Assembly: GCA_017650905.1 (NCBI GenBank)
Contig: JAGCDZ010000103.1
Coordinates: 1-60,390 of the forward strand
Direction: 5' to 3'
Length of the DNA: 60,390 nucleotides
Source of the DNA: Prevotella sp.
Lineage (GTDB): Bacteria > Bacteroidota > Bacteroidia > Bacteroidales > Bacteroidaceae
Within the stretch, counting starts at the first letter, position 1, and each line of letters opens with the position of its first letter. A model generated the notes under the pieces. That model ran no database searches and had not been told where the DNA came from. It saw nothing but the letters and a program-made list of their open reading frames with translations. This document shows positions 41 through 17,886 of the stretch, one piece after another. The translations under genes and the position numbers were made by a program.

Positions 41-48
41 TACTTTTG
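41..48 (+). promoter_or_regulatory. -7 promoter element for the HTH-kinase pair
   Basis: TACTTTTG fits the Bacteroidota -7 consensus TAnnTTTG. It lies 18 nt upstream of the ATG at 67, so the leader would be very short. No clear TTTG is seen about 20 nt upstream, and the window begins only 40 nt before it, so the -33 half is weak or absent. Confidence 0.5.
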
Positions 49-66
49 CAAAAAATCCAGTTCACA

Positions 67-618
67 ATGAAGTTGCCTTTTCATATCGTACAATTACTGA
101 AGGGGAAGTCGGGAAGTGATTTGCGACAGCCTTCTGATTGTGAATTCCTGTCACTTGATATAGAGAGTAAGACGGGCGTTCATATTGGTTCCACAACGTT
201 GAAGCGACTTGTTGGCTTTGCCCAGGATGAACGTACGCCCCATGTCAGTACGCTTGATGCCATTGCCCGCTATTTAGGCTATGCCCATTGGGAGGAACTA
301 TTAAAGATTGAGGACAATGGGAACTCTGACTTTGACACTTCTGACGAAGAAGTCCGCTCTGCTGACTTGCGACCTGACACTATTGTCGAGATCACCTATC
401 TACCAGACAGAAAGGTAAGGATGAGATATCTTGGCAATTGCCACTACCAAGTTGTGGAGAGTCTGAATAGCAAACTTCAGGTTGGCGATGAGTTGGAAAT
501 CCAGAACTTCGTGCTTCATCATCCTCTATTGGTGCTCAATGTCTGGCGCTGTGGCGAGTCGATGGGCCAGTTTACAGCAGGCCGTGTATCAGGCCTTTCA
601 TCTGTTAGGATTCTGTAA
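67..618 (+). CDS. helix-turn-helix-like DNA-binding protein
   Basis: Probable regulator of about 183 residues. The start at ATG 67 is preferred to an in-frame TTG at 46, because that TTG lies inside the -7 element. Residues about 25-75 contain SKTGVHIGSTTLKRL followed by a segment ending YLGYAHWEEL. This pattern recurs in Bacteroidales proteins with an XRE-like helix-turn-helix and a second helix pair. Residues about 100-183 form a separate domain rich in beta strands (VEITYLPDRKVRMRYLG and onward) that I do not recognise. The kinase gene starts 15 nt after the stop, so the two are probably co-transcribed. The role as a DNA-binding protein is inferred from the N-terminal pattern only. Confidence 0.6.
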   Translation: MKLPFHIVQLLKGKSGSDLRQPSDCEFLSLDIESKTGVHIGSTTLKRLVGFAQDERTPHVSTLDAIARYLGYAHWEELLKIEDNGNSDFDTSDEEVRSADLRPDTIVEITYLPDRKVRMRYLGNCHYQVVESLNSKLQVGDELEIQNFVLHHPLLVLNVWRCGESMGQFTAGRVSGLSSVRIL

Positions 619-633: not shown

Positions 634-1869
634 ATGGAGTCGTCTCAGTTTTCAGATAGCCAATCACGATTTGATGCCATCGAACAGATGGAAACACAGG
701 GAACCACTTGTGACACTTTTCGTGTGAAGCTCTATGGCAAACTGCATTTCCTGAAGCGCCTGAAATCTGAATACGCAGGAGATATCCGCTATCAGGAGGC
801 TCTTCGCAAAGAGTTTGAGACGGGCTATCGTCTGGAACATCCTAATTTGGTGCGTTATATCTCGCTCGACAATGATAGCATCTTGATGGAGTATGTCGAG
901 GGTGAGACCCTTTCACAGCGACTTTCATCGAATCCAGACTACTTTAAGAATCGGAAGAATACGGATAAGTTCATCCGTCAGTTGTTGAATGTTATTGGAT
1001 ATCTTCATAGTCATCAAGTGCTCCATCTTGATCTGAAGCCAGACAATATCCTGATTACTCGGATTAATGATGATGTCAAACTCATCGATCTTGGTTGTAG
1101 CTATACTGATTCTTTTCCTGATACCACGGGCCATACCAATGCTTATGCCGCCCCAGAACAATTATCCATAATCCATAGTCCATTATCCATTCAAACAGAC
1201 ATCTATGCTATAGGAAAGATTCTTGAGCGTTTGCCTGACCATAGTATATATAATAAGGTAATAGCCCGTTGCACAGCAGAAGACCCCGCAGACCGCTATC
1301 AGTCTGTAGAGGATATCTTGCACGATGTCAGTCACAGAAAGCGCTACTGGCTTGTCGTGGTAGTGCTTGCACTTATAATCGTTGTTTTGGCTATTGGCAT
1401 CGCAATGAATCATGAGGACAGGATTCCCGCAGACGCACCTACCGATAGCCTTTCGCGTGATTCAGACTTGCAGTCGAATCATGGACCAGCCCCCGTGATT
1501 CACGATACAATCCAACAAATATCGCCAGAATCTGTCAATATCCCTACACAACAATCATCAAAGAAAGATGAGCGGACCCAATTGAATGAAGAACTGGAAC
1601 AATTGATGGATAGAGCCTATCGCTCTACTATAGCCACTTTCTGTGATTCCATATTTCCGCCTCCAATACCTTCTGTTGATAATGCCTGGGCAGATGTCTC
1701 TACTGAGTTCCACAACCAGACTGTTCAAATAGGTGACCGTCTTGTAAAGAAATATCCTGCTATCCCTGAAAGTATCATCCGCCAAGAGACTGAGCAGAGA
1801 TTTCAGGGCCTCGTTGGTTACGTATTCAACCAGATGCGCCAAAACGGCCAACAGCAAAAAGTTCCCTAA
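634..1869 (+). CDS. transmembrane Hanks-type Ser/Thr protein kinase
   Basis: 411 residues. The cytoplasmic kinase domain (about 25-235) shows a candidate ATP-binding Lys at 41, the catalytic loop HLDLKPDN (131-138, catalytic Asp 133), DLG in place of DFG (152-154) and the APE motif (Glu 175). The loop lacks the Arg before the catalytic Asp, so it is a non-RD kinase and may not need activation-loop phosphorylation. One hydrophobic segment (about 239-260) is followed by a roughly 150-residue extracytoplasmic part with a Ser/Pro/Gln-rich linker and a helical end that I do not recognise. It follows the HTH gene closely. A heptanucleotide repeat lies between APEQ and TDIYA in the activation segment. 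Kinase activity is likely because the key residues are present; the substrate is unknown. Confidence 0.9.
   Translation: MESSQFSDSQSRFDAIEQMETQGTTCDTFRVKLYGKLHFLKRLKSEYAGDIRYQEALRKEFETGYRLEHPNLVRYISLDNDSILMEYVEGETLSQRLSSNPDYFKNRKNTDKFIRQLLNVIGYLHSHQVLHLDLKPDNILITRINDDVKLIDLGCSYTDSFPDTTGHTNAYAAPEQLSIIHSPLSIQTDIYAIGKILERLPDHSIYNKVIARCTAEDPADRYQSVEDILHDVSHRKRYWLVVVVLALIIVVLAIGIAMNHEDRIPADAPTDSLSRDSDLQSNHGPAPVIHDTIQQISPESVNIPTQQSSKKDERTQLNEELEQLMDRAYRSTIATFCDSIFPPPIPSVDNAWADVSTEFHNQTVQIGDRLVKKYPAIPESIIRQETEQRFQGLVGYVFNQMRQNGQQQKVP
1161..1191 (+). repeat. heptanucleotide tandem repeat in the kinase gene
   Basis: Four 7-bp units run ATCCATA, ATCCATA, GTCCATT, ATCCATT at 1164-1191. They encode the low-complexity stretch LSIIHSPLSI, which separates two kinase motifs that are normally closer together. 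The surrounding frame stays open. Similar 7-bp arrays occur elsewhere in this window at 34825, 35501, 54616 and 58791. Confidence 0.8.
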
Positions 1870-1904: not shown

Positions 1905-1931
1905 CACCGTTAACATTAATATTACAGGAAA

Positions 1932-2441: not shown

Positions 2442-2446
2442 CGGTG

Positions 2447-2543: not shown

Positions 2544-2577
2544 GGAAGAAATGGTCGCGCTGTTTCTTCCTTTTTTT
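2544..2577 (+). terminator. intrinsic terminator
   Basis: GGAAGAAA (2544-2551) pairs with TTTCTTCC (2563-2570) around an 11-nt loop, and seven T follow. A T-rich tract also lies on the other side, so it could work in both directions. It separates the upstream units from the leader of the tubulin-like operon. Confidence 0.75.
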
Positions 2578-2724
2578 ATGTTAGTTTCGTACATTTGCAG
2601 TCAGAAGCACTAAAAATGAGTGTATTATGTACAAATAATGACGATAAATGATGAAAAAATCGATACGAAGTGGCTAAATTCTATAATAAATGAGGATTTT
2701 TTGCAAAAAAAACAGCTCACAGTG

Positions 2725-2755
2725 TTTGTCGTTTGCAAAATTATTCTTATATTTG
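2725..2755 (+). promoter_or_regulatory. promoter of the tubulin-like operon leader
   Basis: TTTG (2725-2728) and TATATTTG (2748-2755) are separated by 19 nt. A second -7-like box, TACATTTG, lies at 2590-2597 without a good -33. Between the two boxes there is only a short AT-rich stretch with no supported gene. Confidence 0.75.
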
Positions 2756-2759
2756 CAAC

Positions 2760-3000
2760 GTCGCAGATAATCTGTGGCAAACATAGTAGGAAGCGTATTG
2801 CTTTCATCTGTACCGAAAAGTCTGGTAAACTTTCCCGTAAAGCAGATGTAGAGTGAACCGCTCCCTCCTTGGTAGGAATAATAATTGTGTAGCAGTCATA
2901 GGCTCACATCCTATATATCCTCCAAGGGTGTGGACTGTTTCTTTATCTCTTTACAGGTTTTACCAGAGCCTTCGGTAGGATACTGAGAGGCTCACACTTC
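2760..3000 (+). ncRNA. highly structured leader RNA (unknown class)
   Basis: About 240 nt of non-coding sequence lies between the promoter at 2725-2755 and the next gene. It contains several strong complementary pairs: CATCTG with CAGATG, CCTTGG with CCAAGG enclosing AGGA with TCCT and an inner ATAGG/CCTAT, and a hairpin at 2966-2993 in which GAGCCT and TCGGTA pair with TACTGA and AGGCTC around a 3-nt loop. The motif pattern GGTAGGA(A)TA followed by AGGCTCACA occurs twice, suggesting two related sub-structures. No T-tract follows the last hairpin. It may be a 5' regulatory leader or a stable ncRNA. I could not match it to known riboswitch, RNase P, tmRNA or 6S signatures by eye. Confidence 0.55.
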
Positions 3001-3046
3001 TGTTATGTTTGTGTGTTATATAACTAAAAACGGGATAAATAAACCA

Positions 3047-3649
3047 ATGTGGGCTCTATATGATATTCTTAGATACTCTTTTAGCAGTGTAATTTGGGGC
3101 ATCCTGATTGCAGTAGCTTGTATGGCCTTATTTGTTTTTTTGATTAAGGGCTGGTATAAGGATGCTACATTCTCTCCAATTAGTTACATCATTGGGGCTG
3201 TGTTGTTCCTTTTCTTGTCTATTCAGTGCATTTTAATAGTCGGTTCCCTCAAGATTATTGATACAACAGATTATTATGAGACTGAAATTTCGCGTATTGT
3301 AGATAGCGCTTACGATGCAGCTGATGAGGTGACGATGGGGCAGGCTGATGATATCATTCAGGTTATTATCGACAGATTCCCTTTGCTTCAATATTATATA
3401 GGTGGTGGTGAGTTCTCTGGCTTTACTGCCAAGGAACTGCCTCATGCGATGGCAGACGAACTTCGCTCTTTCATGCGTTGGTACATCTTCCGTCGCATCC
3501 TTTGGTGTCTGGGCTTTGTGATTGTTGGGGCAGTCTGCGTTATTAGGTCGTTGTCTAAAAATCGCATTCCATTACGTCAGAGTGAAAGACTCCAAAGACA
3601 ACGTGTCCAAACTGAACGTCGTAGGGTAAGCAGAAAACCAAGAAGATAA
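3047..3649 (+). CDS. inner-membrane protein upstream of the tubulin-like gene
   Basis: About 200 residues with three hydrophobic segments: two near the N-terminus (WGILIAVACMALFVFLI and YIIGAVLFLFLSIQCILIVG) and one near the C-terminus (ILWCLGFVIVGAVCVI). Between the second and third lies a roughly 85-residue soluble domain containing YYIGGGEF. The C-terminal tail is very basic (QRQRVQTERRRVSRKPRR) and probably cytoplasmic. An in-frame ATG at 3005 is possible, but 3047 begins right before the first membrane segment and leaves room for the structured leader. The tubulin-like gene starts 22 nt after the stop, which suggests a membrane partner. Family not recognised. Confidence 0.75.
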   Translation: MWALYDILRYSFSSVIWGILIAVACMALFVFLIKGWYKDATFSPISYIIGAVLFLFLSIQCILIVGSLKIIDTTDYYETEISRIVDSAYDAADEVTMGQADDIIQVIIDRFPLLQYYIGGGEFSGFTAKELPHAMADELRSFMRWYIFRRILWCLGFVIVGAVCVIRSLSKNRIPLRQSERLQRQRVQTERRRVSRKPRR

Positions 3650-3671
3650 CAAATTATAAAACTATAACAAT

Positions 3672-6600
3672 ATGAGTACAACAAGTTTTTGTAACAGCAA
3701 CCACATTTTAGTGGGATTGGGAGGTACAGGAGGTAAGATTCTCCGTGCCTTTAAGATGAGAATGTTTGAAGAATTCCATGACGACGAAGAGCGTAAGAAA
3801 CAGCCAGTAGCTCTTCTTTATGTCGATTCCACTGACGAGATGATGCCACAGGATGGTAAAGCACGTCCTGATTTTCGTGTAATGGGTAAGGATGCCTCGT
3901 TTGTAAATGATGAATTCTTAAATATTAAGGAAGTGGATGTAGAGTACATCTTAGATCATATAAATGATTATCCATCAGTTAAAGGAATCGTTAATAACGT
4001 TATGGCTGTAAAATCTGCAATAGGATCTTTGGGACAGGCGGCAGGACAAAAACGTCGTGCTGGTAGATTGCTGTTTGCCGCTAATGCTGTTGGTTATGAA
4101 AATAGTCTAAAGAAAGCTTTTTCTAAATGTCGAAACATATCTGGTCAAGAAGAAAAAACTAATATTCATATTTTTGCGGGATTAAGTGGAGGAACGGGCT
4201 CTGGCTCAATTGTTGATGCTGTATTGCTTGCAAGGAAGAATTATAGAGATGCAAAAATATCTGTATATGCAATGATGCCTGAAAAGAACTTGCCAAAGCA
4301 AGATATGGATCAAGGACGTTATTATCAAAATGGTTATGCAGCATTAAATGAATTGAATGCCTTGCAAGCAGGTCGTTGGTTTCCTCAAGATGTAACAGGT
4401 ATAGGTGAAGCACATTATTATTCGGATAAAGTCAAAGGAGTTGCTGATGGATTGACGATTTACAGCAACGTTAATGAAAATGGAATGTCCATAAATTCAT
4501 TGCAAGAGTTACCTAAAATAGTTAGTGATTATATTTTTGCAAGAATTTTTCTTATTAACGAAGAAGACCAAGTAAATAGTGATTTGATTCGAGCTTACAA
4601 TTTTGAGAATATGGACGATTTTGCCTTAGAATATGACGAAACGGCAAATATCGGAACTGATGGTAGAAAGACAGTGGCCCGAACCAAGAAAGTCAACTCA
4701 TTTGGTATAAAACGAGTGATGTATCCAGAACTAAGAGTTCTCAAGCATATAACATATACAGTTGGAGAAAGTGTACTCTATCAGTTTAAATATAATAACT
4801 GGCGAGAGAATCAAGGTTTTGTTAACGAAGAGCGTAATAAAGACTATCGTAAAGACTATCTGAACAGTGATAATATTCAGAAATGGATGCTTGATGATCT
4901 TCATCTTACCTATGAATTGAAAGTGTTGGAGTCGGACACAGACTATCCTCGTTTCAATGATTACTGGCATGATAAGGCTGTCGGCTATGCTGAAGAAGCC
5001 AAGAAGGCAGACAATCCGCTCAACGAGCTTGACAATATCATGGGAGAGTTCTATACAAATCATTTCCGTGAAGAAGGTGTGGAAACGTTCTTTATAGGTA
5101 AGGAAAGAGCAATACCTGAAATTGCAAAAGAGATTCGCCATAATGTAGAAAATGAACTCTATGAAAAATGGAAAGTTGGTGATGTCTCTATTGTAGAACT
5201 TCAGAAAGTTTCAAGGCTCTTACTTGAAAAGGTAACAGAGATTCGTGCCGATTTAGAATCAAAATCAAAGGAAGAGAAAGAGAATTTCGAGGCTGTTGAT
5301 CAAGACAGAAGCGACAACGTTACAGAATGGAGTCGCTTGGGCATCCTTCAAAGAATGGTGGGTGCTGGTGCTCGCAGATATGCAGAGCATCAGGAAATCC
5401 TAACAGACTATTACACCTCAAAGACAATGCTCGTCGCTTGGGAGTTCGCCAAGAAACTGGCAGCCCGTATTTATGTTGAATTAGGCAAAATGGATGCAGA
5501 CATCTCGGCATTTGGTCAGAAGATTAACGATGCCATCGATGAAACAGAACGCTTGGTGACTGCACAGCGAAAGGTGAATAAAGGTTTGGAAGACATGAAG
5601 GGCGCCATCATCGAAGTAAGCGAGGATGAGACTATGAGCGAATTTGAAGTTGAACTTAAGGTAGATAAGGTTGACATGCCTAATATTGCCCGTCAGATTC
5701 GTGAGAGTGTTTTGCCAGAAGGTGATTTCGTTAATTTTGGAAGACTGGCTACTGACATTAGTGTTGATGACATCAAGGATGCCTTTGACATTAAACTGTC
5801 TCAGATTGTTAAGACAAAGCATGATGAAAAAGCTGATAGTGACAACAAAGTTCTTGGCTTAAACATCCTTACTCAGCTCCAACAGAAACTTAAATCAGAA
5901 GATCAAATCAAAGAATTTGCGTCAAAGATCGTTAGCCAGAGTGGTGTGTATTTAAAACTGAATAATGATCAAATCCGACGTCATCTACGTAATAATGAAG
6001 ATGATTTGAGTCCAACAAATCCTGCAAGTATCAACAAAAAAACTATATTGATATCTATACCTTCTCCAGATGATAATGAAGGTTTGAAAAAATTTGCAGA
6101 TAAATTGGAACAGGCATTTAATAATTCTATTAAACAAGGTGTAGCACGCACATCTATTGTGGTTAATAGGAAGAGTCCTCGTAAGGATGAATTGTCAATA
6201 ATTACGGTTGCATATTGTTTCCCCATTCGTGCAATAGATTGGATGGGCGACTATAAGAAATTGTATGAAAAATCACTAAATACGGGAAATCCTGCTTCTG
6301 ATATGGCAAATGCAATCCTTCTTCATAGTGAAGGTGATGGAAAACAGCTCCCATCGTTGTTTGCAGTTGACAATGCAGAAGAGATTGCAGCTAAGGCTGC
6401 ACAAGAGGCAATGGCTGCGCAGGCTGCAACAGCACAGCCTCAGGCTGGCCCTGCCGTACCTCCACCAATGCCTGGAGCTGCCCCTGTACCACCACCCATT
6501 GTGCCACAGCCAGAAATAAAACTGTTCATCGCAGTTGCAGGACAGCAGTATGGTCCTTATAATATGGATATGTGTAAACAGATGGTTCAAGGTGGTCAAC

Positions 6601-6752
6601 TGACGCCTCAGAGTACGGTATGGATGGAAGGAATGCCTGCATGGGCTCCCGCAAGTCAGGTTCCTGCATTGCAGGCTCTATTTGCTCCTGCTGCCCCAGC
6701 AATGCCATCACTGCCTCCAACAGGTGGCCCGACCCCTCCACCAATGTTGTAG
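3672..6752 (+). CDS. tubulin/FtsZ-superfamily protein with C-terminal GYF_2 domain
   Basis: 1026 residues. The N-terminus carries a nucleotide-binding glycine motif, VGLGGTGGK (14-22), and the tubulin/FtsZ signature SGGTGSGS (172-179), which binds GTP phosphates in that superfamily. This fits the large Tubulin_2-type (FtsZ-like) bacterial proteins and not FtsZ itself, which is near 400 residues. A long charged, helix-rich middle region (about 400-900) contains coiled-coil-like stretches. An Ala/Pro/Gln linker (about 905-945) leads to a GYF_2-like domain (about 948-1005, with QQYGPYNMDMCKQMV and a WMEGMPAWAP segment), a fold known to bind proline-rich peptides. The chain ends in another Pro-rich tail that could be bound by such a domain. 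The gene lies between a membrane protein and a zinc-ribbon membrane protein. GTP binding and assembly are inferred from motifs; the role is unknown. Confidence 0.85.
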   Translation: MSTTSFCNSNHILVGLGGTGGKILRAFKMRMFEEFHDDEERKKQPVALLYVDSTDEMMPQDGKARPDFRVMGKDASFVNDEFLNIKEVDVEYILDHINDYPSVKGIVNNVMAVKSAIGSLGQAAGQKRRAGRLLFAANAVGYENSLKKAFSKCRNISGQEEKTNIHIFAGLSGGTGSGSIVDAVLLARKNYRDAKISVYAMMPEKNLPKQDMDQGRYYQNGYAALNELNALQAGRWFPQDVTGIGEAHYYSDKVKGVADGLTIYSNVNENGMSINSLQELPKIVSDYIFARIFLINEEDQVNSDLIRAYNFENMDDFALEYDETANIGTDGRKTVARTKKVNSFGIKRVMYPELRVLKHITYTVGESVLYQFKYNNWRENQGFVNEERNKDYRKDYLNSDNIQKWMLDDLHLTYELKVLESDTDYPRFNDYWHDKAVGYAEEAKKADNPLNELDNIMGEFYTNHFREEGVETFFIGKERAIPEIAKEIRHNVENELYEKWKVGDVSIVELQKVSRLLLEKVTEIRADLESKSKEEKENFEAVDQDRSDNVTEWSRLGILQRMVGAGARRYAEHQEILTDYYTSKTMLVAWEFAKKLAARIYVELGKMDADISAFGQKINDAIDETERLVTAQRKVNKGLEDMKGAIIEVSEDETMSEFEVELKVDKVDMPNIARQIRESVLPEGDFVNFGRLATDISVDDIKDAFDIKLSQIVKTKHDEKADSDNKVLGLNILTQLQQKLKSEDQIKEFASKIVSQSGVYLKLNNDQIRRHLRNNEDDLSPTNPASINKKTILISIPSPDDNEGLKKFADKLEQAFNNSIKQGVARTSIVVNRKSPRKDELSIITVAYCFPIRAIDWMGDYKKLYEKSLNTGNPASDMANAILLHSEGDGKQLPSLFAVDNAEEIAAKAAQEAMAAQAATAQPQAGPAVPPPMPGAAPVPPPIVPQPEIKLFIAVAGQQYGPYNMDMCKQMVQGGQLTPQSTVWMEGMPAWAPASQVPALQALFAPAAPAMPSLPPTGGPTPPPML

Positions 6753-6790
6753 TAAAGAAAAATGTATAACAGAATAAAAAAAATACGATT

Positions 6791-7468
6791 ATGGCAGAAA
6801 GAAATACAGACCGTATACGTTACAGATATGGTATTTGTCTGAACGACAATTGTGAGAAATGTAAGTCTAAAGAAGTACAGGAAATCCCTGCACGCAAGGA
6901 ATTCGTTTGCCCTGAGTGTGGTAAGCCTTTGCGCGAATGTCCACCTCCAAAGAAAGGCGGAAATACTAAGCTCATCGGCATCATTGCTGGTGCAGTTGCT
7001 CTGTTGGCAATTATCGGTGGCATCATTACTTTTAGTGGTAGTGGTGAGGAAACACCGAAACAGGAGCCGGTGGCCGTAGCCCCAGTTGACAGCGACAGCA
7101 TTAAGGCTGCTCAAATGGAGGCTGAGAATCAGAGATTGAAGGATAGTTTGGCAGCTGTTGAGGCTGCGAATGCCAAGAAACAGGAAACACCTGCAGCAAA
7201 ACCTTCCGCAGCCCCTGCTACTCCAAAGCCAGCCGCTTCTAGCTCTAAGAACCTTGGCTATGCAACCTTCAAGGGTTCTTGGCCTAATGATGTGAATGGT
7301 CGCATGGTATTCACCTCTTCACATGTCATTGACAGCAAAGACCCCAAAAAGCGTGTTGCTGAGCCTGGTGACTATGTGATAGGTGAATGGGCTGATGGTC
7401 ATCTGGTTCAAGGCATCTGGTACGGCTCTGATAATCAAGTGAAGGGTAGTGTTATCATTGGTAGATAA
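6791..7468 (+). CDS. zinc-ribbon / single-TM / MORN-like protein
   Basis: 225 residues. The N-terminal zinc ribbon has Cys at 16, 21, 24 and at 40, 43, 50 (CPECGKPLREC). A membrane helix follows at about 59-80 (LIGIIAGAVALLAIIGGII), then a Gln/Glu/Ala/Pro-rich linker with coiled-coil character. The C-terminal portion resembles a short MORN-type beta repeat (GEWADGHLVQGIWYG). The topology implies a cytoplasmic zinc ribbon joined to a periplasmic reporter domain. It starts 38 nt after the tubulin-like gene and is followed 11 nt later by a secreted protein, so it is probably in the same operon. It could connect the cytoplasmic filament protein with envelope partners; that is inference. Confidence 0.75.
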   Translation: MAERNTDRIRYRYGICLNDNCEKCKSKEVQEIPARKEFVCPECGKPLRECPPPKKGGNTKLIGIIAGAVALLAIIGGIITFSGSGEETPKQEPVAVAPVDSDSIKAAQMEAENQRLKDSLAAVEAANAKKQETPAAKPSAAPATPKPAASSSKNLGYATFKGSWPNDVNGRMVFTSSHVIDSKDPKKRVAEPGDYVIGEWADGHLVQGIWYGSDNQVKGSVIIGR

Positions 7469-7479
7469 TTTCGAATGTC

Positions 7480-8442
7480 ATGTTGAGACGCTCAGTTTAT
7501 ACATTTCTACTAATAGTATGGTGTGCTTCCGCATCATCTCAGGGCTTGAAGATATTCAGCCCTGAGGTGAAGGAGGCTGCGCCAAGAACTCAAGTGGTGG
7601 TGATGAACTTCTTGGAGCGTTATTTCAGTGAGCTGACGAATACCAAGCAGACTACCGTATTGACGAAGATGGCTGATGACAAAGTTTATTTCCGGAAGGG
7701 CAAACCCTCAGATTTGTATCAGATCTGTGATACGATGCCATTTTCCATCAATCTGCTTGATCGCTATTATGAGGTGAATTGGATGAAGGCTGATGAGCCG
7801 TTTGTCACCATTGTATTCCCTGCGCAATATGACTTGCTGCTTGGAGCGCAGAAAGATGAGGCTTCAAAACAATTCAAGGATGCTGTTATTGCTGCTCCTC
7901 AACAAACAAAAGATTCAGAAGCCCCTTCCAATTTAGAAAAAGTCAGCGAATCGATATATAAGACAAAAGGCGATACCCTCGAACTGGCAAGTCTTACAGA
8001 TGCTATATATTATAATAAGGTACGCGAAGACTATCATCCTGTCTTTGATAATGACCATATTGCCTATTCATCTGCTAACCTGTATCATGGGCTGATATCA
8101 GATGTAGACTATCGTATGTACGTGGAACAGTCTGTCTATGGTATGACAACCATTAACTATTCTATCAAACTCAGTCAATGGCTCAACTATTGTGCAGAGT
8201 GGGGCCTGAAGGTGTTTTTTGCTGTAGAGGAAGAGCGAGAGGATGGTATATTGGCGCTTGTGATAGCGCAGAGCAAGGAATTAGGTTATCATCATTTGCT
8301 TTCTGTCGTCATTCCTGACAAGTTTGTTACTGACCAAAATGCCGTTCTGAAGGTAAGGCTGACTCCTTATATACCAGTTCATAATGTGAAAGATCTGTAT
8401 CAAAAACAATCAACAACCCATAAAAAAGTAAAATGGCAATGA
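7480..8442 (+). CDS. secreted protein of unknown family
   Basis: 320 residues with a clear N-terminal signal peptide (hydrophobic TFLLIVWCASASS, predicted cleavage near residue 20). The mature part is mixed alpha/beta and has no cysteine cluster or repeat that I recognise. Its last 4 nt overlap the start of the next secreted protein (ATGA at 8439-8442), a sign of translational coupling. Its place directly after the zinc-ribbon membrane protein suggests a periplasmic partner. Confidence 0.8.
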   Translation: MLRRSVYTFLLIVWCASASSQGLKIFSPEVKEAAPRTQVVVMNFLERYFSELTNTKQTTVLTKMADDKVYFRKGKPSDLYQICDTMPFSINLLDRYYEVNWMKADEPFVTIVFPAQYDLLLGAQKDEASKQFKDAVIAAPQQTKDSEAPSNLEKVSESIYKTKGDTLELASLTDAIYYNKVREDYHPVFDNDHIAYSSANLYHGLISDVDYRMYVEQSVYGMTTINYSIKLSQWLNYCAEWGLKVFFAVEEEREDGILALVIAQSKELGYHHLLSVVIPDKFVTDQNAVLKVRLTPYIPVHNVKDLYQKQSTTHKKVKWQ

Positions 8443-9185
8443 AACGACTACTATTTATAATAGCTATTGTAATCTCTAGTCTCTCGATATGTAAGGCTCA
8501 GACGGCTACTGAAGTGTCTAAGAATATTAATAAAGTAAAGCGTGACACCATGTATATCTATGCTGAGGCTACAATGAAAGACCTCAATGAGGCATACAAT
8601 GGTGCTCGAGCTATTCTTGAAATGAAGGTAGGCGACTGGGTAAGAGAGCAGCATCCTTCAGAAGGAATAGAAGTGTGCATCGTAAAAGCCAAGGAGCACT
8701 TTTTGCAATTAGAGACGCGGCGAGGCGATTTCTATCGTGCCTTTGTCTATGTCCGTAAAAGCGACATTATGCCTGTGGCAGACAAGAGTGAAGTTACGGT
8801 TTTCGAGGTGGCTCCAGTTGCCCAACCTGATCAGCCTCAGGCTGCTCCTGCAATTATCATCTCTGAAGATGCACCTGTAGAAGAGAAGAAATCTCCTGTT
8901 TTAGAGCTTACCTCCGAAGAAAAGCAGATGAAGCTGGTACGCAGTTTCTATGAAGTGGAACCGTATATCAAAGGCTTGAAGAGCAAGGGGAAAATAAATG
9001 CCTATGGTAAATATGCGACGATGCCTGAAGATGAAGACTGCCACCTGTTTGTCTATGACAAACAGGGGAACATTTCTGCCTTGCTTCGCAAAAGCGGTAA
9101 TATACAATACAATCTGAATACACTTAAAGAAGACAACGTTAAGAATTATAAGAACTGTGGAGCCATCTGGTTCCAGCTAAAATAA
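8439..9185 (+). CDS. secreted protein of unknown family
   Basis: About 248 residues. The start at 8439 is preferred to 8433 because it gives MKRLLFIIAIVISS, a good signal peptide, and an ATGA overlap with the upstream stop. The mature protein has an SH3-like beta-rich segment (about 45-115, MKVGDWVREQHPSEGIEVC and onward), a Pro/Gln/Ala linker, then a C-terminal domain with a basic end. Function not recognised. The next gene begins 1 nt after the stop. Confidence 0.75.
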   Translation: MKRLLFIIAIVISSLSICKAQTATEVSKNINKVKRDTMYIYAEATMKDLNEAYNGARAILEMKVGDWVREQHPSEGIEVCIVKAKEHFLQLETRRGDFYRAFVYVRKSDIMPVADKSEVTVFEVAPVAQPDQPQAAPAIIISEDAPVEEKKSPVLELTSEEKQMKLVRSFYEVEPYIKGLKSKGKINAYGKYATMPEDEDCHLFVYDKQGNISALLRKSGNIQYNLNTLKEDNVKNYKNCGAIWFQLK

Positions 9186-9186: not shown

Positions 9187-10158
9187 ATGATGATGAAAAA
9201 AATACTATTAATTGTTATAGTGGCTCTGTTTGCCATTCAAAGTAGAGCAGACAACGTCACTTTTACAGTTTCTGACGGCATTGACAATGCTGGCATTAAG
9301 TCAAAGATTGAGAGTGAAGTTAGCCATATGCTGACAGAAATCAATGCAGCCCAGGAAGCTGGTCGCAGTCTCAATTTCTCAGCTATGGGTAATATTGGTA
9401 CTCGTGTTCAGCAATCAATGGCAATGTTATGGGAAAACTCTCCATTTGTTTGTACTGATGAAGAGATTATCGAACATTGCCTTACAACTGGTACAGGTTA
9501 TCAGGTTCGTAACATTCCTCTGATGATGAAGCCTACTGGCGAACGTGAGTTTGGTGAAGATGAGTATCAAGAAGCTGTAATCAGCTTTGATAAGCAAGGC
9601 AACGTAGAGAGTTTCTATCTTAGTATCTCCATGAACCTCTACATGAACGTCATTAAGAGCAATCTGGAACTGACAGACCTTCGCCGTCGCCAGTTGATTC
9701 TTGATTATGTAGAGCAGTTCCGTACTGCGTACAATCAGAAGGATATCAACTTCCTCAATCAGGTATTCAGCGATGATGCGCTGATTATTACGGGTAAGGT
9801 TATTACCACCAAACATGCAGAAGGTTTCACCTCTCAGAAAATACAATACAACAAGCAGTCGAAAGAGCAATATATTAAGAACCTCCGTGGTGTCTTTGCT
9901 CGGAACAGCTATATTAAGGTAACTTTTGACGAAATTGAAGTAATGCGCCATCCTGTCAATCCAAACTTCTATGGCGTCACCCTTCTTCAAGGTTGGACCA
10001 GCGGCAAGTATCACGATGACGGTTACCTCTTCCTCCTCTGGGACTTCACCAACGAAGATGCTCCCCAAATCCACGTCCGCACCTGGCAGCCTGATAAGAT
10101 TGGTGGCAAGGCATTACCTAAGGACGAAGTGTTTAGTTTAAGTGATTTTGATATTTAA
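9187..10158 (+). CDS. secreted protein with NTF2/SnoaL-like domain
   Basis: 323 residues. The signal peptide is MMMKKILLIVIVALFAI; ATG codons at 9187, 9190 and 9193 are all possible starts. Residues about 175-310 look like an NTF2/SnoaL-like fold: ILDYVEQFRTAYNQKDINFL followed by DDALIITGKV and a late YLFLLWDF strand with HVRTWQP. Such folds form small cone-shaped pockets used for ligand or protein binding. It closes a run of tightly spaced genes that starts at 3047. The substrate or partner is unknown. Confidence 0.75.
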   Translation: MMMKKILLIVIVALFAIQSRADNVTFTVSDGIDNAGIKSKIESEVSHMLTEINAAQEAGRSLNFSAMGNIGTRVQQSMAMLWENSPFVCTDEEIIEHCLTTGTGYQVRNIPLMMKPTGEREFGEDEYQEAVISFDKQGNVESFYLSISMNLYMNVIKSNLELTDLRRRQLILDYVEQFRTAYNQKDINFLNQVFSDDALIITGKVITTKHAEGFTSQKIQYNKQSKEQYIKNLRGVFARNSYIKVTFDEIEVMRHPVNPNFYGVTLLQGWTSGKYHDDGYLFLLWDFTNEDAPQIHVRTWQPDKIGGKALPKDEVFSLSDFDI

Positions 10159-10760: not shown

Positions 10761-12206
10761 ATGAACAAAAGATTATTTAGTTTATTAATTGGGGCTTTGT
10801 TTGCCTTTATTGTTGATGCCCAGGATATTGAGGTGAAGAAGTTTGAGCCGTTGGAGAAAGACCAGACGACGGCATTGAGTCCAAGAAAGGATATCAATGG
10901 GAATGACTGTGCTCTGGTGCTGGTTCGTACTCTCAAAAAGGGAATGGAGTTTGATGGATGGGTGGTCGGTGATGTAGAGTATAAAGATGACAGTTATTGG
11001 GTGTATATGGCTAATGGTGCCAAACATATCAATATAAAGCATCCTGATTATCAGACTAAGAAAGTCTTGTTTAGTGAGTATGGTATAGGAAATATAAAAG
11101 GTGGACAGTTATATAGTTTGCGTATTGTTGATGAAACTAAGGATGTTATCAATAGAGTATATAGTTTAGGATGGAATTTGAGTGGCTTTGAGGTGTCTGA
11201 AAAAATAAAAACGTTTTTAAACATGTCTGCTAAGAGGGGAGATAAAAAAGCGATAATTGCCTTAGCTCAGTTGTCTGTTGGAGGGAATGTTCAAAAAGGT
11301 GAATTCCTCGAACAAAATAAGGGACTTCATTGGATTAATAATCTGCTAGAAAAAGGGGATAGTGCATGTCTTGACTCTATGCCTGGTGAGTTGATGTATG
11401 TTTATGCATGTAAACTAATAAGGGATGGTTTAAGCCATGATCGAAGTCCAAATAGGGTTGATACGTACAAAGAAAGAGTTATATATACAGAAGCGAGTGA
11501 ATATGACTTGAAAGCATGCCAGAAAGGATATAAGGAGGCTGGGGATGATTTCTTCTTAGATTATATTCAAAGTAACGGTTTACCAGCATATAAAAAAGAT
11601 GTAATGCGCCTATGTTTAGATTCTGCATCAACAGGGAATACAAAAGCTATGAGATGTCTTGGCATTATTTTTGAAAACGGAATTTGTGAAGAGAGGAACC
11701 TTCTTACTGCTTCTGAATGGTATAGAAAAATATACGATTCAAGTCTTTCAAATCAGAGTAAAACAGATTTGTGTAGGGTATATGGTAATAGTAGATACCC
11801 CATTGACGGAGAGACTCTGAGTTTTATTAAACAAAAGGCTGAAGAAGGGTTGCAAGAAGCATTGTTCCAATTGGGCTGTATGTATGAAGAAGGAAGGAAT
11901 GTGGAAAAGAATATTGAGAAAGCGGTAGAATTATACAAGCAGTCCAAACCTACCATTTTTGATTCTAATCGTCATCATGGAGCAACTTATCGCTTGGCAA
12001 AGATATATTATGATCGTAAAGACTATAAGGAAGCAGAGAACCTATTAAAAGGCCTATATGATGATGAACTTGATGCCCGCTATCTGCGAGCTATGATACT
12101 GTTTCAAGATACAAGAGATTATAAAGTAGAAGCATATAATATATTAAGCGATTTATCTAAAAAAGGTTATCAAAAAGCAACAGATTTTATAAAGAATAAC
12201 TATTAA
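10761..12206 (+). CDS. secreted paralogue A: shared N-domain plus Sel1-like repeats
   Basis: 481 residues with signal peptide KRLFSLLIGALFAFIVDAQ. Residues about 22-130 form the N-terminal domain shared with the genes at 12217, 14757 and 16330 (core pattern: V-K-x-F, then G-x-x-C-x-L-V, F-x-G, VG(D/E)V, (Y/W)-W-V-Y-M, HP). The rest contains Sel1-type TPR-like repeats (for example LFQLGCMYEEGRNVEKNIEKA in pieces of about 36 residues). At DNA level its first 100 bases of the mature region closely resemble the 14757 gene, so the duplication is recent. Probably an exported scaffold for protein contacts. The next paralogue starts 11 nt after the stop. Confidence 0.85.
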   Translation: MNKRLFSLLIGALFAFIVDAQDIEVKKFEPLEKDQTTALSPRKDINGNDCALVLVRTLKKGMEFDGWVVGDVEYKDDSYWVYMANGAKHINIKHPDYQTKKVLFSEYGIGNIKGGQLYSLRIVDETKDVINRVYSLGWNLSGFEVSEKIKTFLNMSAKRGDKKAIIALAQLSVGGNVQKGEFLEQNKGLHWINNLLEKGDSACLDSMPGELMYVYACKLIRDGLSHDRSPNRVDTYKERVIYTEASEYDLKACQKGYKEAGDDFFLDYIQSNGLPAYKKDVMRLCLDSASTGNTKAMRCLGIIFENGICEERNLLTASEWYRKIYDSSLSNQSKTDLCRVYGNSRYPIDGETLSFIKQKAEEGLQEALFQLGCMYEEGRNVEKNIEKAVELYKQSKPTIFDSNRHHGATYRLAKIYYDRKDYKEAENLLKGLYDDELDARYLRAMILFQDTRDYKVEAYNILSDLSKKGYQKATDFIKNNY

Positions 12207-12216: not shown

Positions 12217-13875
12217 ATGAAAAGAATCATTTTTATGTTGCTTGTTTTTTCAAGCATTTCTGCATTCTCACAGAAAGAGATTAAGGTCGTAAGTTTCAAG
12301 CAGAGTTCCTCTGATATATCTGCACGTACTAATCAAAGAGAAGACCCAAAAGGTGAAGCTTGTGCATTAGTTAAAGTGCAATTGCCCCAGCGTAACGCTC
12401 TGTTTGAAGGTGACATAATTGGCGAAATCGCATTTAAAACCAATGAGTATTGGGTCTATATGCCCCAAAAGAGTACTCAATTGGAGATTAAGTTGCAAGA
12501 TTGTAAACCTTTAAAAGTGGATTTTATAAATTATGATATTCCTTCGTTAGAGTCAAAAGGTACTTATGAATTATGTATTATCAAAGAAGCTGCTGATTCC
12601 CCACAACTCTATAATGAGGGTATGACGGCTTTAGCCAAGAATGATATAGTTACCGCTTTTGAAAAGTTGGAGAAAGCATATGATGCAGGCTATGCTCCAG
12701 CAGCATACGAATTAGGGCAGGCTTCACTTGTCACTTATGATAGAAATTATGACGAAGATCCCAATACAACAGAATCATATCAGGAAGCATATAATTATTA
12801 TAAGAAAGCTGCTGAAGGTGGCAGTCCTGAAGCCCAGTATGCTTTAGGAGCAATGTTATTGGATTTCCAAAACAAATATCCAGAAGAATTGTCCAAGATA
12901 AAAGTTGATCCTCCCTTTTTAGATAAATCAAAAATATGGAATCTTATTAAAAATGCTGCTGATAAGGGCGTGGTGAATGCTCAATATCAAATGCTTGCAG
13001 ATGACAAGTGGTGTGAGGAAAATGCAAATAATGGTAATCCTGTCGCACTATTTGGTATGGGATTGAGAAATGACTCAGAGTTATCATACGAAGAATACTG
13101 GATGTTGGAATCGACAGATATTAGCTCTTCCGAGAATTTTGAAAAAGCAGCAGAATGGTACCAGAAGGCTGCTGAAATTGGTCTTGACGCAGCACAGTGG
13201 AGATTAGGGGAATTATATGCACGAGGATTAGGTGTAAAACAAGATATTAATAAAGCAATAGAATTCAGAACGAAGGCTGCAGAACAGGGAAACACCATGT
13301 TCCAGTTTATGATGGGTATTATGTATGCAACTGGCGGATTTGCAGATTATTCAACCTATATGTTCCCAGATGGATACGTATATAATGTTGAAATACCTCA
13401 AGACACCGAAAAAGCTGATAAATGGCTTAGGAGTGTAAACCACAGACAATTAAATAAGACAGAAAAGGATAGATTAGAGGGAAATGGACTGCTTTCATTT
13501 ACGCTTAATGAACTTTCAGATGGTTTTATGAAACAATCAAAATATGAAAAAGCGATCTATTGGTATCAGAGAGAGGCAGAGATGGGGTATCGTGATGCTT
13601 TTTGTAATTTAGGTGAAATATATCTTGAAGGAAAAGGCATTAGCAAAGACTATCAAAAGGCTAGAATGATGTTTGAAAAGGCGATATTGGATGATGAGCA
13701 CTATGGAGACGGCTATAGCGGACAGTTAAAGTCAAAAGCCTTGTGTTATCTAGGAATCATCTATCGGGATGGTCTTGGTGTATCTGTAAATAAAGATAAG
13801 GCAAAAGAACTCCTATATAGGGCATTAGAAGAAGGGTATGATGAAGCTAAAAATGAACTGGAAAAAATTAACTAA
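12217..13875 (+). CDS. secreted paralogue B: shared N-domain plus Sel1 repeats
   Basis: 552 residues. The signal peptide is MKRIIFMLLVFSSISAFSQ. The shared N-domain (about 20-125) includes EYWVYMPQ. At least six Sel1-like repeats follow, recognisable by A-x-x-x-L-G-x-x-Y/L and G-V-x-x-D-x-x-K-A (for example RLGELYARGLGVKQDINKA and NLGEIYLEGKGISKDYQKA). Such repeats usually make alpha-solenoids that bind other proteins. It is 11 nt downstream of paralogue A, so the two are co-transcribed. No catalytic motif is seen. Confidence 0.85.
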   Translation: MKRIIFMLLVFSSISAFSQKEIKVVSFKQSSSDISARTNQREDPKGEACALVKVQLPQRNALFEGDIIGEIAFKTNEYWVYMPQKSTQLEIKLQDCKPLKVDFINYDIPSLESKGTYELCIIKEAADSPQLYNEGMTALAKNDIVTAFEKLEKAYDAGYAPAAYELGQASLVTYDRNYDEDPNTTESYQEAYNYYKKAAEGGSPEAQYALGAMLLDFQNKYPEELSKIKVDPPFLDKSKIWNLIKNAADKGVVNAQYQMLADDKWCEENANNGNPVALFGMGLRNDSELSYEEYWMLESTDISSSENFEKAAEWYQKAAEIGLDAAQWRLGELYARGLGVKQDINKAIEFRTKAAEQGNTMFQFMMGIMYATGGFADYSTYMFPDGYVYNVEIPQDTEKADKWLRSVNHRQLNKTEKDRLEGNGLLSFTLNELSDGFMKQSKYEKAIYWYQREAEMGYRDAFCNLGEIYLEGKGISKDYQKARMMFEKAILDDEHYGDGYSGQLKSKALCYLGIIYRDGLGVSVNKDKAKELLYRALEEGYDEAKNELEKIN

Positions 13876-14756: not shown

Positions 14757-16337
14757 ATGAAACATAACTTATTATTGGTATTAATGTTTCTTATTCGCGT
14801 TTGGGCGTATGCCCAAGACATTGAGGTGAAGAAGTTTGAACTTATGGCGAAAGATCAGACGGCAGCATCGAGTCCAAGAAAGGATATCAATGGGATGGTG
14901 TGTGGATTAGTGAAGGTACAGTTGAAGGAGCCTGGGGCCGAGTTCGAGGGCAATGTGATGGGTGAGGTGCAGTTCACTGGGGATGAGTATCTTGTATATT
15001 TGCCCAATGGTACTAAACGACTGGGTATCAAACATCCAGACTATCTGCCAACTACCATTGTCTTTGCGGACTATGGAACCAAGAAGATCATCTCATCTAC
15101 CACCTATGAGTTAAAGGTGAAAACCAATAAGAAGCAGGCGAAGGTGGACAATAGCAAGAAAGGAATAGCTGTGTTCAACATTAAACCTTCGAATGCCATG
15201 CTACTTATCGATGGCCAGATAGCTGATGGCTCAAGTGGTGTTTATACGCTGTCATTACCATACGGTACTCATTATTACACGGTAAAGCTGAAGGATTTCA
15301 GCATCAATAACCAGTCTATACAGATTGATAAGACTGCCAAAAATATCAACGTGGATTTAACGGAGTTCTTTGCAAAGGTTGATGTTTCTTGCCAAACAGA
15401 AGATGCAGACATTTTGATTAACAGTGAGCAGAAGGGAGTTGGTAAATGGGGAGGTATGATGATTCCTGGCAAATATACCATTGAGGCCCAAAAGGATGGT
15501 TGCCATTCCCAAAGCAGACAAGTGGAACTGAAGGATAATGAGACTATCAAAGTTGAGTTTACAGCACTAAAGACCATTACGGGAAGTCTTCGAGTGGATT
15601 ATGAGCCGGCGGGAGCAGATATATTGCTGAATGGCAAGAAGGTCGGTGTGACACCATTGTACATAAAGGAGCTTCCTGTTGGTGATTATCATTTAGAAAT
15701 ATGGAAGGAATATTATGTGAAGGAGTTCGCCACTGTGAAGATAGCAGAAGATCAGGAGTGGAAGGAAACAGGGAAATTGAAACTGACACAGTTCGGGGAG
15801 TTAATAGTAAATGCAGGAAAGGATGATGATCCATACGCAATAGCCATGTATTATCGAATTGGTTCTACTGTAGGTTATAGGGGTAAGCATAACGCATGTG
15901 TGAAAGACACTTTTCATATTTCATTGGATCCCGTAAAAGCAGTATCTTGGTATAAGAAGATTTTGAGTGATAGAGGAGAACTTAATTCTGATGTTGCTAG
16001 TAATATATTAGGTCCATGTTATCCGTCAGAGACGGACGATGCTAAATTGTCATTTTGTACGTTAAAGCACGAAATAGATGAACTTGATGGTGAGGGAAAA
16101 TACGAACAACAAGTAATAATGTGGTCATATTATCCATATGCAGCTTTAGCATGGCACTATTTCTATGGGATTGGCTGCGAAAAGAATATAGAGGAAGCAA
16201 AGAAATATATGAGATGGGCTTGTACAGAGGAGGGGGAGTATTGGTACCCTGCTTATATCAAGATGATTAAAGACATGGGGCTTGATAATGAATTGAAATA
16301 TAATCCTAAATTGAACCCAGATTTTATATATGAATAG
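14757..16337 (+). CDS. secreted paralogue C: shared N-domain plus PEGA repeats
   Basis: 526 residues with signal peptide (LLLVLMFLIRVWAYAQ). The shared N-domain (about 21-125) is nearly the same as in the 10761 gene. Three PEGA-type beta domains follow: about 140-205 (with MLLIDGQ), 206-275 (ADILINSEQKGVGKWGG) and 278-345 (ADILLNGKKVGVTPLYIKEL, the classical PEGA pattern). A C-terminal Sel1-like helical part contains AWHYFYGIGCEKNIEEA. PEGA domains are common in surface or periplasmic proteins and are often found next to Ser/Thr kinases. Its stop overlaps the next gene by 8 nt. Confidence 0.85.
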   Translation: MKHNLLLVLMFLIRVWAYAQDIEVKKFELMAKDQTAASSPRKDINGMVCGLVKVQLKEPGAEFEGNVMGEVQFTGDEYLVYLPNGTKRLGIKHPDYLPTTIVFADYGTKKIISSTTYELKVKTNKKQAKVDNSKKGIAVFNIKPSNAMLLIDGQIADGSSGVYTLSLPYGTHYYTVKLKDFSINNQSIQIDKTAKNINVDLTEFFAKVDVSCQTEDADILINSEQKGVGKWGGMMIPGKYTIEAQKDGCHSQSRQVELKDNETIKVEFTALKTITGSLRVDYEPAGADILLNGKKVGVTPLYIKELPVGDYHLEIWKEYYVKEFATVKIAEDQEWKETGKLKLTQFGELIVNAGKDDDPYAIAMYYRIGSTVGYRGKHNACVKDTFHISLDPVKAVSWYKKILSDRGELNSDVASNILGPCYPSETDDAKLSFCTLKHEIDELDGEGKYEQQVIMWSYYPYAALAWHYFYGIGCEKNIEEAKKYMRWACTEEGEYWYPAYIKMIKDMGLDNELKYNPKLNPDFIYE

Positions 16338-17886
16338 AAAAATTACTAATAACATGCGTTTAATACAATTTTTTTTATTAATATGTTGGTCTATTCCTTC
16401 TATCTCACAAGGATTCAAAGTGAAAGAATTTAAGCAGAATATCAATGATGGTTCTGCCTTTCATGCTCCTTTGGATGCAGAAGGGCACCCATGTGGTTTG
16501 ATAAAAGTGAGAACAGATAATGCAGAACTGAAGTTCAAAGGCAATATTGTCGGTGAGGTAGAAAACAAAACCAATGAGTATTGGGTTTATATGATTCAGG
16601 GGAGCAAACAATTAAATATCTTACATCCAAATTTCCTGCCGATGTCTTTAGATTTCGATAGTTTCGGCATAGGTGAAGTTATCTCTAAGGCAACTTATAT
16701 ATTAACACTAACCGAACAAAAGTATAACAAAGAGAAGAGCGGCTTGGTTGCAATTGTGAAGCCAGAGACTGCTATGCTCTATATCGATGATGTTTATTTG
16801 GAGAATCTAAGCGGTAATGGCCTATATCAACTATATCTTCCTAAGGGTGACCATGTTTGTCGTATAGAGCAGAAAGGTTATCGGCCCAATGTGCAAGTGG
16901 TGACTACAGGTAAGGGAACACAGAATCTGAATGTGGAGTTGGAGTCGGTTATGGCTGAGTTTGAGGTGAAGTGTAAGACTGGTACTGCTGAAATCTATAT
17001 TGATGGAGAACGGAAAGGTAATGGCTTTTGGAAAGGAACTATATTTGCTGGCGAACATCAAATAGAGGCGAGGCAGCAGAATTATGAATCCAATATTCAA
17101 ACCATTTCAATAGCGGAGAAAGAGAGTCAGACATTTGTAATACCAGAACTCAAGCGTTCCATGGGTAAACTTCGTATTCAGACGACACCCAATAACTTGC
17201 CAGTTAGTGTAGATGGAAAATATGTAGGCATGAGTCCATGTACGATAGATATAGAAACTGGTAATCATTATTTTAGTTGTAAAACCTATGGCTACGCTCA
17301 GTATCGTTCGGATTTTGATATCAAAAGTGGAAAACAAACTGATTTGTCAGTTATGATGAGTATTGATAACGAAATAGATGATTACGATAAGGAGTTATAT
17401 ATTAAGGCTTACAATGGAGATCAGGAAGCCATAAGTGAACTTGCTGTGAATATAGCAGGGGCTATATATAGAGGAGGAATTGGTGATCCATTAGAAGCCG
17501 TTTTTTGGTTGGAGAGGTATTCGCTACCTGAAGAATTATTAGATTTCGAAGGATGGATTGATGTATATTGTTATATAGGTAATCCAGATAAGGCTTTGGA
17601 ATTATACTATCCAATAAAGAGCAAAGTAGAAAACCGTGGCGGTATGTTTTTGGCAGAATATTATATGTCAAAAATAGGTGATGCATTTTTGAAGAAAAAT
17701 GTAATTGATAAAGCTATTCAATGTTATGAAAAAGCCGATAAAGATGGCTATGAAGGATTAGGTGATTGCTATAAGGCCAAAGGCAACAAACAACTCGCTG
17801 CAAGCTACTATCGCAAGTGTATGAACTTGGATTATTATGATAATAAGAATAGGGTAGAGAAGAAACTAAAGGAATTGGGATACTGA
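16330..17886 (+). CDS. secreted paralogue D: shared N-domain, PEGA repeats and TPR end
   Basis: 518 residues from 16330; ATG 16354 (MRLIQFFLLICWSIPSIS) would give a more standard signal peptide. The shared N-domain (about 28-130, with NEYWVYMIQG) is followed by three PEGA-like units, including AEIYIDGERKGNGFWKG and LPVSVDGKYVGMSPCTI. A helical TPR/Sel1-like C-terminus (about 355-518, DAFLKKNVIDKAIQCYEKA) ends the chain. It shares domain order with the 14757 protein. The stop TGA overlaps the next start in TGATG, so translation is probably coupled. Confidence 0.85.
   Translation: MNRKITNNMRLIQFFLLICWSIPSISQGFKVKEFKQNINDGSAFHAPLDAEGHPCGLIKVRTDNAELKFKGNIVGEVENKTNEYWVYMIQGSKQLNILHPNFLPMSLDFDSFGIGEVISKATYILTLTEQKYNKEKSGLVAIVKPETAMLYIDDVYLENLSGNGLYQLYLPKGDHVCRIEQKGYRPNVQVVTTGKGTQNLNVELESVMAEFEVKCKTGTAEIYIDGERKGNGFWKGTIFAGEHQIEARQQNYESNIQTISIAEKESQTFVIPELKRSMGKLRIQTTPNNLPVSVDGKYVGMSPCTIDIETGNHYFSCKTYGYAQYRSDFDIKSGKQTDLSVMMSIDNEIDDYDKELYIKAYNGDQEAISELAVNIAGAIYRGGIGDPLEAVFWLERYSLPEELLDFEGWIDVYCYIGNPDKALELYYPIKSKVENRGGMFLAEYYMSKIGDAFLKKNVIDKAIQCYEKADKDGYEGLGDCYKAKGNKQLAASYYRKCMNLDYYDNKNRVEKKLKELGY

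Follow-up and report, generated by a model that had tools for sequence, protein, structure and literature searches.

What does a tubulin-like protein of about 1,000 residues do among membrane and secreted proteins? We address this question for a 60,390-nucleotide stretch of Prevotella sp. DNA (GenBank contig JAGCDZ010000103.1, positions 1 to 60,390; hereafter the window), in which a large tubulin-like gene, here called TUB, stands in a row with genes for a membrane protein (TM4), a zinc-ribbon protein with one transmembrane (TM) segment (ZNR) and three secreted proteins (S7, S8 and S9). Our answer, favoured tentatively and with belief and doubt almost in balance, is that TUB sits at the core, on the cytoplasmic side, of a cassette that spans the envelope (TM4-TUB-ZNR-S7-S8-S9, accompanied by secreted proteins of the PEGA/Sel1 or the x1/x0 kind), and that it may be one driver among several in the cytoplasm. 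What the sequence itself shows are the domains, the conserved gene set, the secreted sets lacking TUB and a fusion of an S8-like part with S9.

Pfam profiles, applied with hmmscan, placed Tubulin_2 (PF13809) on residues 12-368 of TUB (E = 7.3e-47; 160.8 bits against a curated cut-off of 27) and GYF_2 (PF14237) on residues 952-1000 (E = 1e-14). A preliminary description of the locus had read the gene as a large tubulin-superfamily protein of 1,026 residues with a GYF_2-like C-terminal domain and had proposed this search; both domains were recovered in the open reading frame that it named. The two glycine loops that it had pointed out, VGLGGTGGK (T1) and SGGTGSGS (T4), are present as well, and G15, G17-G18-T19-G20-G21-K22 and G173-G174-T175-G176-S177-G178 are invariant across 54 aligned TUB homologues. 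With a profile score above the cut-off and both loops, TUB belongs to the FtsZl1/Tubulin_2 family. It is not a plain FtsZ: the Tubulin GTPase profile (PF00091) remained below its cut-off (E = 5.9e-6; 27.1 bits against 33), and no C-terminal FtsZ domain was listed. Two separate FtsZ-type matches above cut-off lie elsewhere in the source genome, on contigs C25 and C68 (L162 and L163); as the genome carries 3% contamination, one of them may be foreign.

Comparison of 26 diverse Tubulin_2 N-termini with 29 FtsZ sequences by hhalign brought T1, the T2 strand and T4 into register and set an AGQ-R-GR stretch opposite FtsZ T3, in an alignment that is itself weak (E = 0.0018, probability 15%). With the 54-member TUB set, the T4 loop alone aligned to the FtsZ profile, and a PDB profile search matched beta-tubulin at TUB residues 153-205 only (best E = 0.0092). 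Asparagine N220 is kept in all of the 26 diverse sequences, N268 in 88% and N313 in 88%; by their pattern, we propose N220 and N268 as the putative guanine-contacting asparagines of H6 and T6/H7. N268 bears on whether TUB is instead a non-polymerising, GTP-dependent switch or a chaperone for the secretion of S7-S9. Such a role would agree with the 2010 account of FtsZl1, which states in the passages drawn on here that the filament-related T6-H7 could not be confidently identified (PMC2875224). However, according to the same authors, every member of the superfamily that had been characterised by that time forms filaments (PMC2875224), and the retention of the candidate T6 asparagine also speaks against it; we regard a mere switch or chaperone as quite improbable.

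The neighbourhood of TUB was compared across the best 80 of 151 relatives, which with the window gave 81 loci. Fourteen were dropped, two for want of a full TUB and twelve as too short, leaving 67 testable loci (TUB longer than 800 amino acids (aa), at least 0.8 kb upstream and at least 4.5 kb downstream). All five core partners (TM4, ZNR, S7, S8 and S9; individual counts in Table 1) occur together in 54 of these, four in 10, three in 2 and one in 1, and the most constant partner is the secreted S7. Other genes were x0 (40 loci), x1 (35), PEG genes (30, downstream), the kinase (6) and its partner gene R0 (6); genes beyond the cassette differ between loci. The supposed tie of TUB to the envelope and to a run of secreted proteins, for which a comparison of neighbourhoods had been suggested, held up in this co-occurrence of membrane and secreted genes with TUB in other genomes.

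The loci are titled Bacteroidales, or families or genera of that order, with the exceptions of L053 and L054 (Bacteroidetes), L070 (Clostridium sp.) and L082 (Clostridiales). TUB (profile A1, three rows; E = 4e-102 or better) was detected in 40 of 398 genomes of the genus and, at E ≤ 1e-40, in 6 of 344 genomes sampled from the order, while Tubulin_2 proteins of any kind occur in 10 of 345 phylum-sample genomes, 7 of them above cut-off; the source genome is included each time. S9 lies within 12 kb of TUB in 37 of the 40 carriers of the genus. In other Tubulin_2 operons of the same genus (L013, 9017-15327; L019, 4189-9885), the partner of the tubulin is either a C1 peptidase protein of the papain-like kind (E = 3.9e-17) or one with a transglutaminase domain (E = 6e-18).

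The preliminary description knew of no described system with this set of genes, which was too strong a statement. Makarova and Koonin described FtsZl1 in 2010, with vWA proteins, kinases, a GTPase, OmpA and membrane proteins as frequent neighbours and membrane remodelling as the proposed role (PMC2875224), and the Tubulin_2 group corresponds to their FtsZ-like sequences (PMC9871819); the passages of PMC9879509 and PMC11188069 covered here go no further than naming the family or the 2010 paper on it. TUB resembles FtsZl1 in its N-terminal tubulin-like domain, its length of about 1,000 aa, its membrane-associated partners and the kinases sometimes nearby. It differs in its C-terminal GYF_2 domain, in the constant partners TM4, ZNR, S7, S8 and S9, and in a secreted part common to loci that lack TUB. 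No vWA, GTPase or OmpA protein was found among the window neighbours and the representatives of conserved partners scanned. Such partners are frequent rather than universal in FtsZl1, and because the criterion is contextual, the membership of TUB stands. The family is thus already known, and the composition of the cassette is what was not found in print: TM4-TUB-ZNR-S7-S8-S9 did not appear in the literature searched, a comparison outside which lay the 2010 supplementary context tables, which include Bacteroides members. That literature likewise yielded no paper combining a tubulin-like protein, a GYF domain, a kinase and Bacteroidetes.

Under the 2010 proposal, TUB would polymerise on the inner membrane and deform it, for instance for vesicles, and the secreted genes would be secondary. 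Family membership (PMC2875224) and the presence of the membrane partner TM4 in 59 of the 67 loci are consistent with this, but the neighbours scanned include none of the vWA, GTPase and OmpA partners on which it drew, the most constant partner (S7, 66/67) is secreted, and a reviewer of the 2010 paper raised a compartment problem (PMC2875224). We therefore consider a membrane-remodelling cytoskeleton unlikely.

How TUB might reach the secreted proteins is suggested by its C-terminus. Among 74 TUB rows longer than 900 aa, 58 carry the GYF domain, 15 a helical tail and one, which ends at a contig edge, neither; the two kinds of end are mutually exclusive. One locus was seen twice (L016 and L071), so that the 58 GYF rows represent 57 distinct proteins. 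A proline stretch, LRECPPP in most cases, lies directly before the TM segment of ZNR in the GYF loci. With GYF scored by profile and the ZNR prolines by a loose PP rule within a 30-residue slice, PP was present in 48 of the 52 loci with GYF and in 2 of the 11 without it (Fisher p = 1.4e-6, kinship ignored); L065 was scored as lacking PP because its stretch starts at the edge of the slice. An earlier scoring of GYF and PPP by regular expression, which overlooked several GYF domains plain by eye, had given 40 loci with both, 9 with neither, 8 and 7 discordant and 12 without ZNR. GYF domains bind proline-rich peptides, and for this reason we read the ZNR proline stretch as a candidate docking site for the GYF domain of TUB.

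In the mechanism that we propose, TUB would bind GTP and then polymerise or switch, and its C-terminal GYF domain would bind ZNR at the proline-rich stretch, close to the cytoplasmic face of the inner membrane. ZNR in turn would cross the membrane and contact S7-S9 outside through its MORN-like end. The state of TUB could thus be relayed to the secreted module, which would build or position an envelope or surface structure.

The GYF domain also invites comparison with gliding motility. The TUB profile matched PDB chain 7z3c, "Adventurous gliding motility protein X" of Myxococcus, in this domain (E = 0.0032), and the NCBIfam profile GltJ matched both TUB (E = 2.3e-8, 33.6 bits) and ZNR (E = 1.1e-6), in both cases far below the equivalog cut-off of 450 bits. 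A GYF domain and a zinc ribbon with a TM segment are common to the two systems; in GltJ, which we take to be identical with AglX and to have this domain layout, they presumably sit in one protein, whereas here they are split between TUB and ZNR. A complex for motility or adhesion, in the manner of gliding focal adhesions or of movement linked to pili, in which TUB gives a positional cue, would further suit the fimbrillin-like genes that adjoin S9 in L197 (by reading) and the impaired phototaxis of Synechocystis sll0445 mutants, in which photosystem fluorescence is altered too (PMC9880817). We nevertheless find it distinctly unlikely: the cut-off is missed, no other gliding gene was found among the proteins scanned, the ZNR match spans the TM segment and low-complexity sequence, and the small GYF domain is the only part shared. 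Sll0445 has the same Pfam domain, Tubulin_2, as TUB, but it is cyanobacterial and was studied with FtsA-domain and DivIC-domain proteins. In the literature searched, sll0445 was the only FtsZl1/Tubulin_2 member found with a mutant study, no paper was found on GltJ with GYF and zinc, and a query on GltJ, MglA and zinc finger gave one one-sentence passage of use.

The secreted module also occurs without the tubulin. In 14 places around S9 homologues away from TUB, which were picked by hand and not at random, S7, S8 and S9 stand together in 10; L182 and L192 have S7 and S9 without S8, and L190 and L191 have only S9, as part of a fusion. A tblastn search of ten TUB-less loci at E = 1e-3 found neither TM4 nor TUB; S7 and S9 are present in all ten of them and S8 in nine. 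The fusions join an S8-like N-terminus to the NTF2-like domain of S9 (L190, 8903-10687; L191, 7703-9613, with LPP20 in L191) and lie beside PEG proteins.

A pseudokinase-TM-MORN protein directly precedes S7 in 4 of the 14 loci (L180, L181, L182 and L186). L181 is a short contig holding this protein; the upstream genes of L180, L182 and L186 encode a LytTR protein, an FHA protein, a zinc-ribbon/FHA protein and the pseudokinase-TM-MORN protein. Pfam gave a kinase match below cut-off among the four upstream proteins of L180 (E = 2.1e-6), and MORN matches in L181 (E = 2.5e-7), L182 (E = 1.1e-6) and, below cut-off, L186 (E = 3.3e-4). We speak of a pseudokinase because the kinase-like part, inspected by eye, lacks the HxD asparagine and DFG motifs. 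A BspA-type leucine-rich-repeat (LRR) protein neighbours the module in L182 (E = 1.9e-132), and we take neighbouring BspA-type LRR and PEGA/Sel1 proteins as a hint of a structure at the surface or in the envelope.

In L188 and L189, homologues of R0 (58-71%) and of the window kinase (about 48% identical) lie upstream of S7-S8-S9, without TUB or TM4; S9 is 75% and 67% identical to that of the window, respectively. The MORN-like end of the L188 coupling protein shows 4 differences in 72 residues from that of the window ZNR; the cytoplasmic end of the L188 protein carries a double zinc ribbon and lacks CPPP. In L189, the MORN-like domain (57% over 77 aa) ends a 908-aa protein whose signal-like N-terminus suggests that the domain lies outside the membrane. 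In some other loci, genes for a pseudokinase, a zinc-ribbon protein or a kinase thus accompany the MORN-like end and S7-S8-S9, which makes tubulin-like and kinase-like inputs seem exchangeable. It is possible, if on balance somewhat doubtful, that a tubulin-like GTPase and Hanks-kinase-type modules plug interchangeably into the same S7-S8-S9 envelope machine, via a MORN-ended coupling protein whose cytoplasmic end is swapped.

The kinase, which the preliminary description had tied to the tubulin gene, is near 6 of the 67 testable TUB loci, 6 of the 54 with at least 5 kb upstream and 7 of the 40 TUB-carrying genus genomes, which rules it out as a constant partner. The 398 genus genomes contain 134 kinase homologues (of 136 rows), and 15 of these have a listed S9 homologue no more than 12 kb away. 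Uniform placement, which ignores kinship and contig structure, would predict 0.57; this proximity is not mere chance. Seven of the 15 have TUB nearby and eight do not, so the kinase is linked to wider S9/PEG neighbourhoods and only optionally to TUB. L188 and L189 make up two of the eight, with full S7-S8-S9; the other six (L194-L199) have a partial S9 match beside PEG genes, with no S7 or S8 recognised. R0 was recognised beside the kinase in three of these six (L194, L195 and L198) and not in L196, L197 and L199. In L197 (1229-7957), S9 and PEG genes stand beside two fimbrillin-type-lipoprotein-like proteins (1,197 and 318 aa), by reading of the sequence.

Plasmid and phage collections yielded one long relative, on a Paraburkholderia megaplasmid (L203; 83% covered, 26.7% identity), and partial matches on one Meiothermus plasmid and one "phage" record. 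The Paraburkholderia TUB (601 bits with the TUB profile) adjoins a zinc-ribbon-TM protein hit by the ZNR profile (E = 1e-11), and lies 2.4 kb downstream of a glycine-zipper protein recalling x0. On the Meiothermus plasmid (L204, 1175-14371), vWA and tubulin-like genes directly adjoin DUF1156- and BrxL-annotated genes, with an HmaC match. The vWA-Tubulin_2 operon of Meiothermus plasmid pMtWR-220 is like TUB in its Tubulin_2-type protein and unlike it in its vWA and 679-aa partners and its place beside defence genes. The "phage" record (L205, 4710-9792; 9.8 kb in all) has a tubulin-like gene after a vWA-like gene, beside ordinary bacterial-looking genes, and is probably bacterial DNA.

An anti-phage or conflict system would account for the patchiness of TUB in the genus and the order, for the defence genes HmaC/BrxL beside the distant Meiothermus relative, and for the low guanine-plus-cytosine content of window positions 1-20,000 (0.36-0.42 versus 0.50 for 20-60 kb), which is in keeping with an acquired island. 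We think it very improbable, as the constant partners are membrane or secreted proteins and the Meiothermus tubulin and vWA proteins have no PADLOC match at E = 0.001. TUB itself matched 0 PADLOC families at E ≤ 0.1, which rejects a known PADLOC defence system.

Several findings weigh against our reading of TUB as a driver of a shared envelope machine. The comparison with FtsZ is weak. The GYF-CPPP association tracks two main clades and may be one event, and L099 and L100 have ZNR PP without GYF. S9 homologues, present in 152 of 398 genus genomes, are commoner than TUB. By the ZNR C-terminal profile, the MORN-like end occurs in only 6 of the 14 TUB-less loci (L180, L181, L182, L186, L188 and L189), which lowers our confidence both in the cassette as best explanation and in interchangeable drivers. 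In L183-L185, which have LytTR and FHA genes, S7 is preceded by a zinc-ribbon protein, with neither pseudokinase nor MORN; in L187 and L190-L193 no such protein was recognised, and in L194-L199 the same profile recognised no MORN-like end. The partner protein in the Paraburkholderia locus has TPR repeats and no MORN, its TUB lacks GYF, and no TM4, S7, S8 or S9 homologue was found in its surroundings.

In the window, the genes at 3005-10158 are tightly packed on one strand: the first four are 22, 38 and 11 bases apart, the fourth and fifth overlap by 10, and the last two are 1 base apart (Table 1). TM4 starts 1.1 kb downstream of the kinase end, with a promoter-like site in between. The pattern of this site, which we take to be a Bacteroidales-type promoter consensus, has 8 matches in the window versus 1.23 expected; three similar sites lie within 0.9 kb in the kinase-cassette interval (1873-1904, 2447-2478 on the minus strand, and 2725-2755). 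The end of the kinase gene is overlapped by an open reading frame (1814-2359) with a match to LPD3, the large polyvalent protein-associated domain 3 (E = 2.4e-7).

The Hanks kinase, the basic-tailed membrane protein and the secreted proteins are neighbours as first described. The reported zinc-ribbon/TM/MORN-like protein is also there, although the zinc ribbon of the window ZNR falls below the Pfam cut-off (E = 0.0064) and no MORN match was listed for it at E ≤ 1; its homologue in L018 matches MORN at E = 1.1e-4 (22.4 bits against a cut-off of 22.5). The hydrophobic segment of the window kinase was read by eye, and the TM4 family has three hydrophobic segments in 50 of 71 members. PDB profile searches gave no convincing match for S7, S8 or S9, and Pfam none for S7. 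S8 has no direct Pfam family, scattered weak matches being all that 29 scanned members gave; the S8 profile and Pfam LPP20 both hit the N-terminal part of the L191 protein, in stretches that overlap. Among 30 S9 family members, DUF4440 was matched in 27 and Cds6_C in 19 (E ≤ 0.1).

Table 1. Features of the window, all on the plus strand, with their occurrence in the 67 testable loci where counted
Feature	Position	Strand	Evidence or remark	Testable loci
R0, kinase partner gene	46..618	+	No Pfam match; adjoins KIN in L188, L189, L194, L195, L198, L200, L201, L202	6
KIN, Hanks-type kinase with C-terminal hydrophobic segment, optional partner	634..1869	+	Pkinase E = 2e-26	6
Promoter-like site, Bacteroidales-type, upstream of TM4	2725..2755	+	TTTG-N(17-23)-TAnnTTTG	
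TM4, membrane protein with basic C-terminal tail	3005..3649	+	Upstream of TUB	59
TUB, Tubulin_2/FtsZl1-family protein, 1,026 aa	3672..6752	+	ATG start; Tubulin_2 match; 54-member alignment A2	67
Tubulin_2 (GTPase-like) domain of TUB	3705..4775	+	Pfam; T1-T5 region weakly in register with FtsZ by hhalign (E = 0.0018, probability 15%)	
GYF_2 domain of TUB, then Pro-rich tail	6525..6671	+	Pfam; chain 7z3c match	
ZNR, zinc ribbon, LRECPPP stretch, one TM segment, MORN-like C-terminal domain	6791..7468	+		64
S7, secreted protein	7480..8442	+		66
S8, secreted protein	8433..9185	+	LPP20-like via relation to the L191 fusion protein	64
S9, secreted protein	9187..10158	+	NTF2-like domain (sub-threshold)	64
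Sel1-repeat secreted protein, PEG group	10761..12206	+	Sel1 E = 4.2e-10	
Sel1-repeat secreted protein, PEG group	12217..13875	+	Sel1 E = 3.1e-33	
PEGA/Sel1 secreted protein	14757..16337	+	PEGA E = 1.9e-19	
PEGA/TPR secreted protein	16330..17886	+	PEGA E = 1e-20	

The cassette supplies the FtsZl1 family with concrete partners, a candidate docking site and natural swap cases that lack the tubulin and have other cytoplasmic modules next to the same secreted genes. If our reading is true, it would constitute a direct cytoskeleton-to-periplasm coupling system, not described before, and would show a route by which a cytoplasmic tubulin homologue may act on the periplasm.

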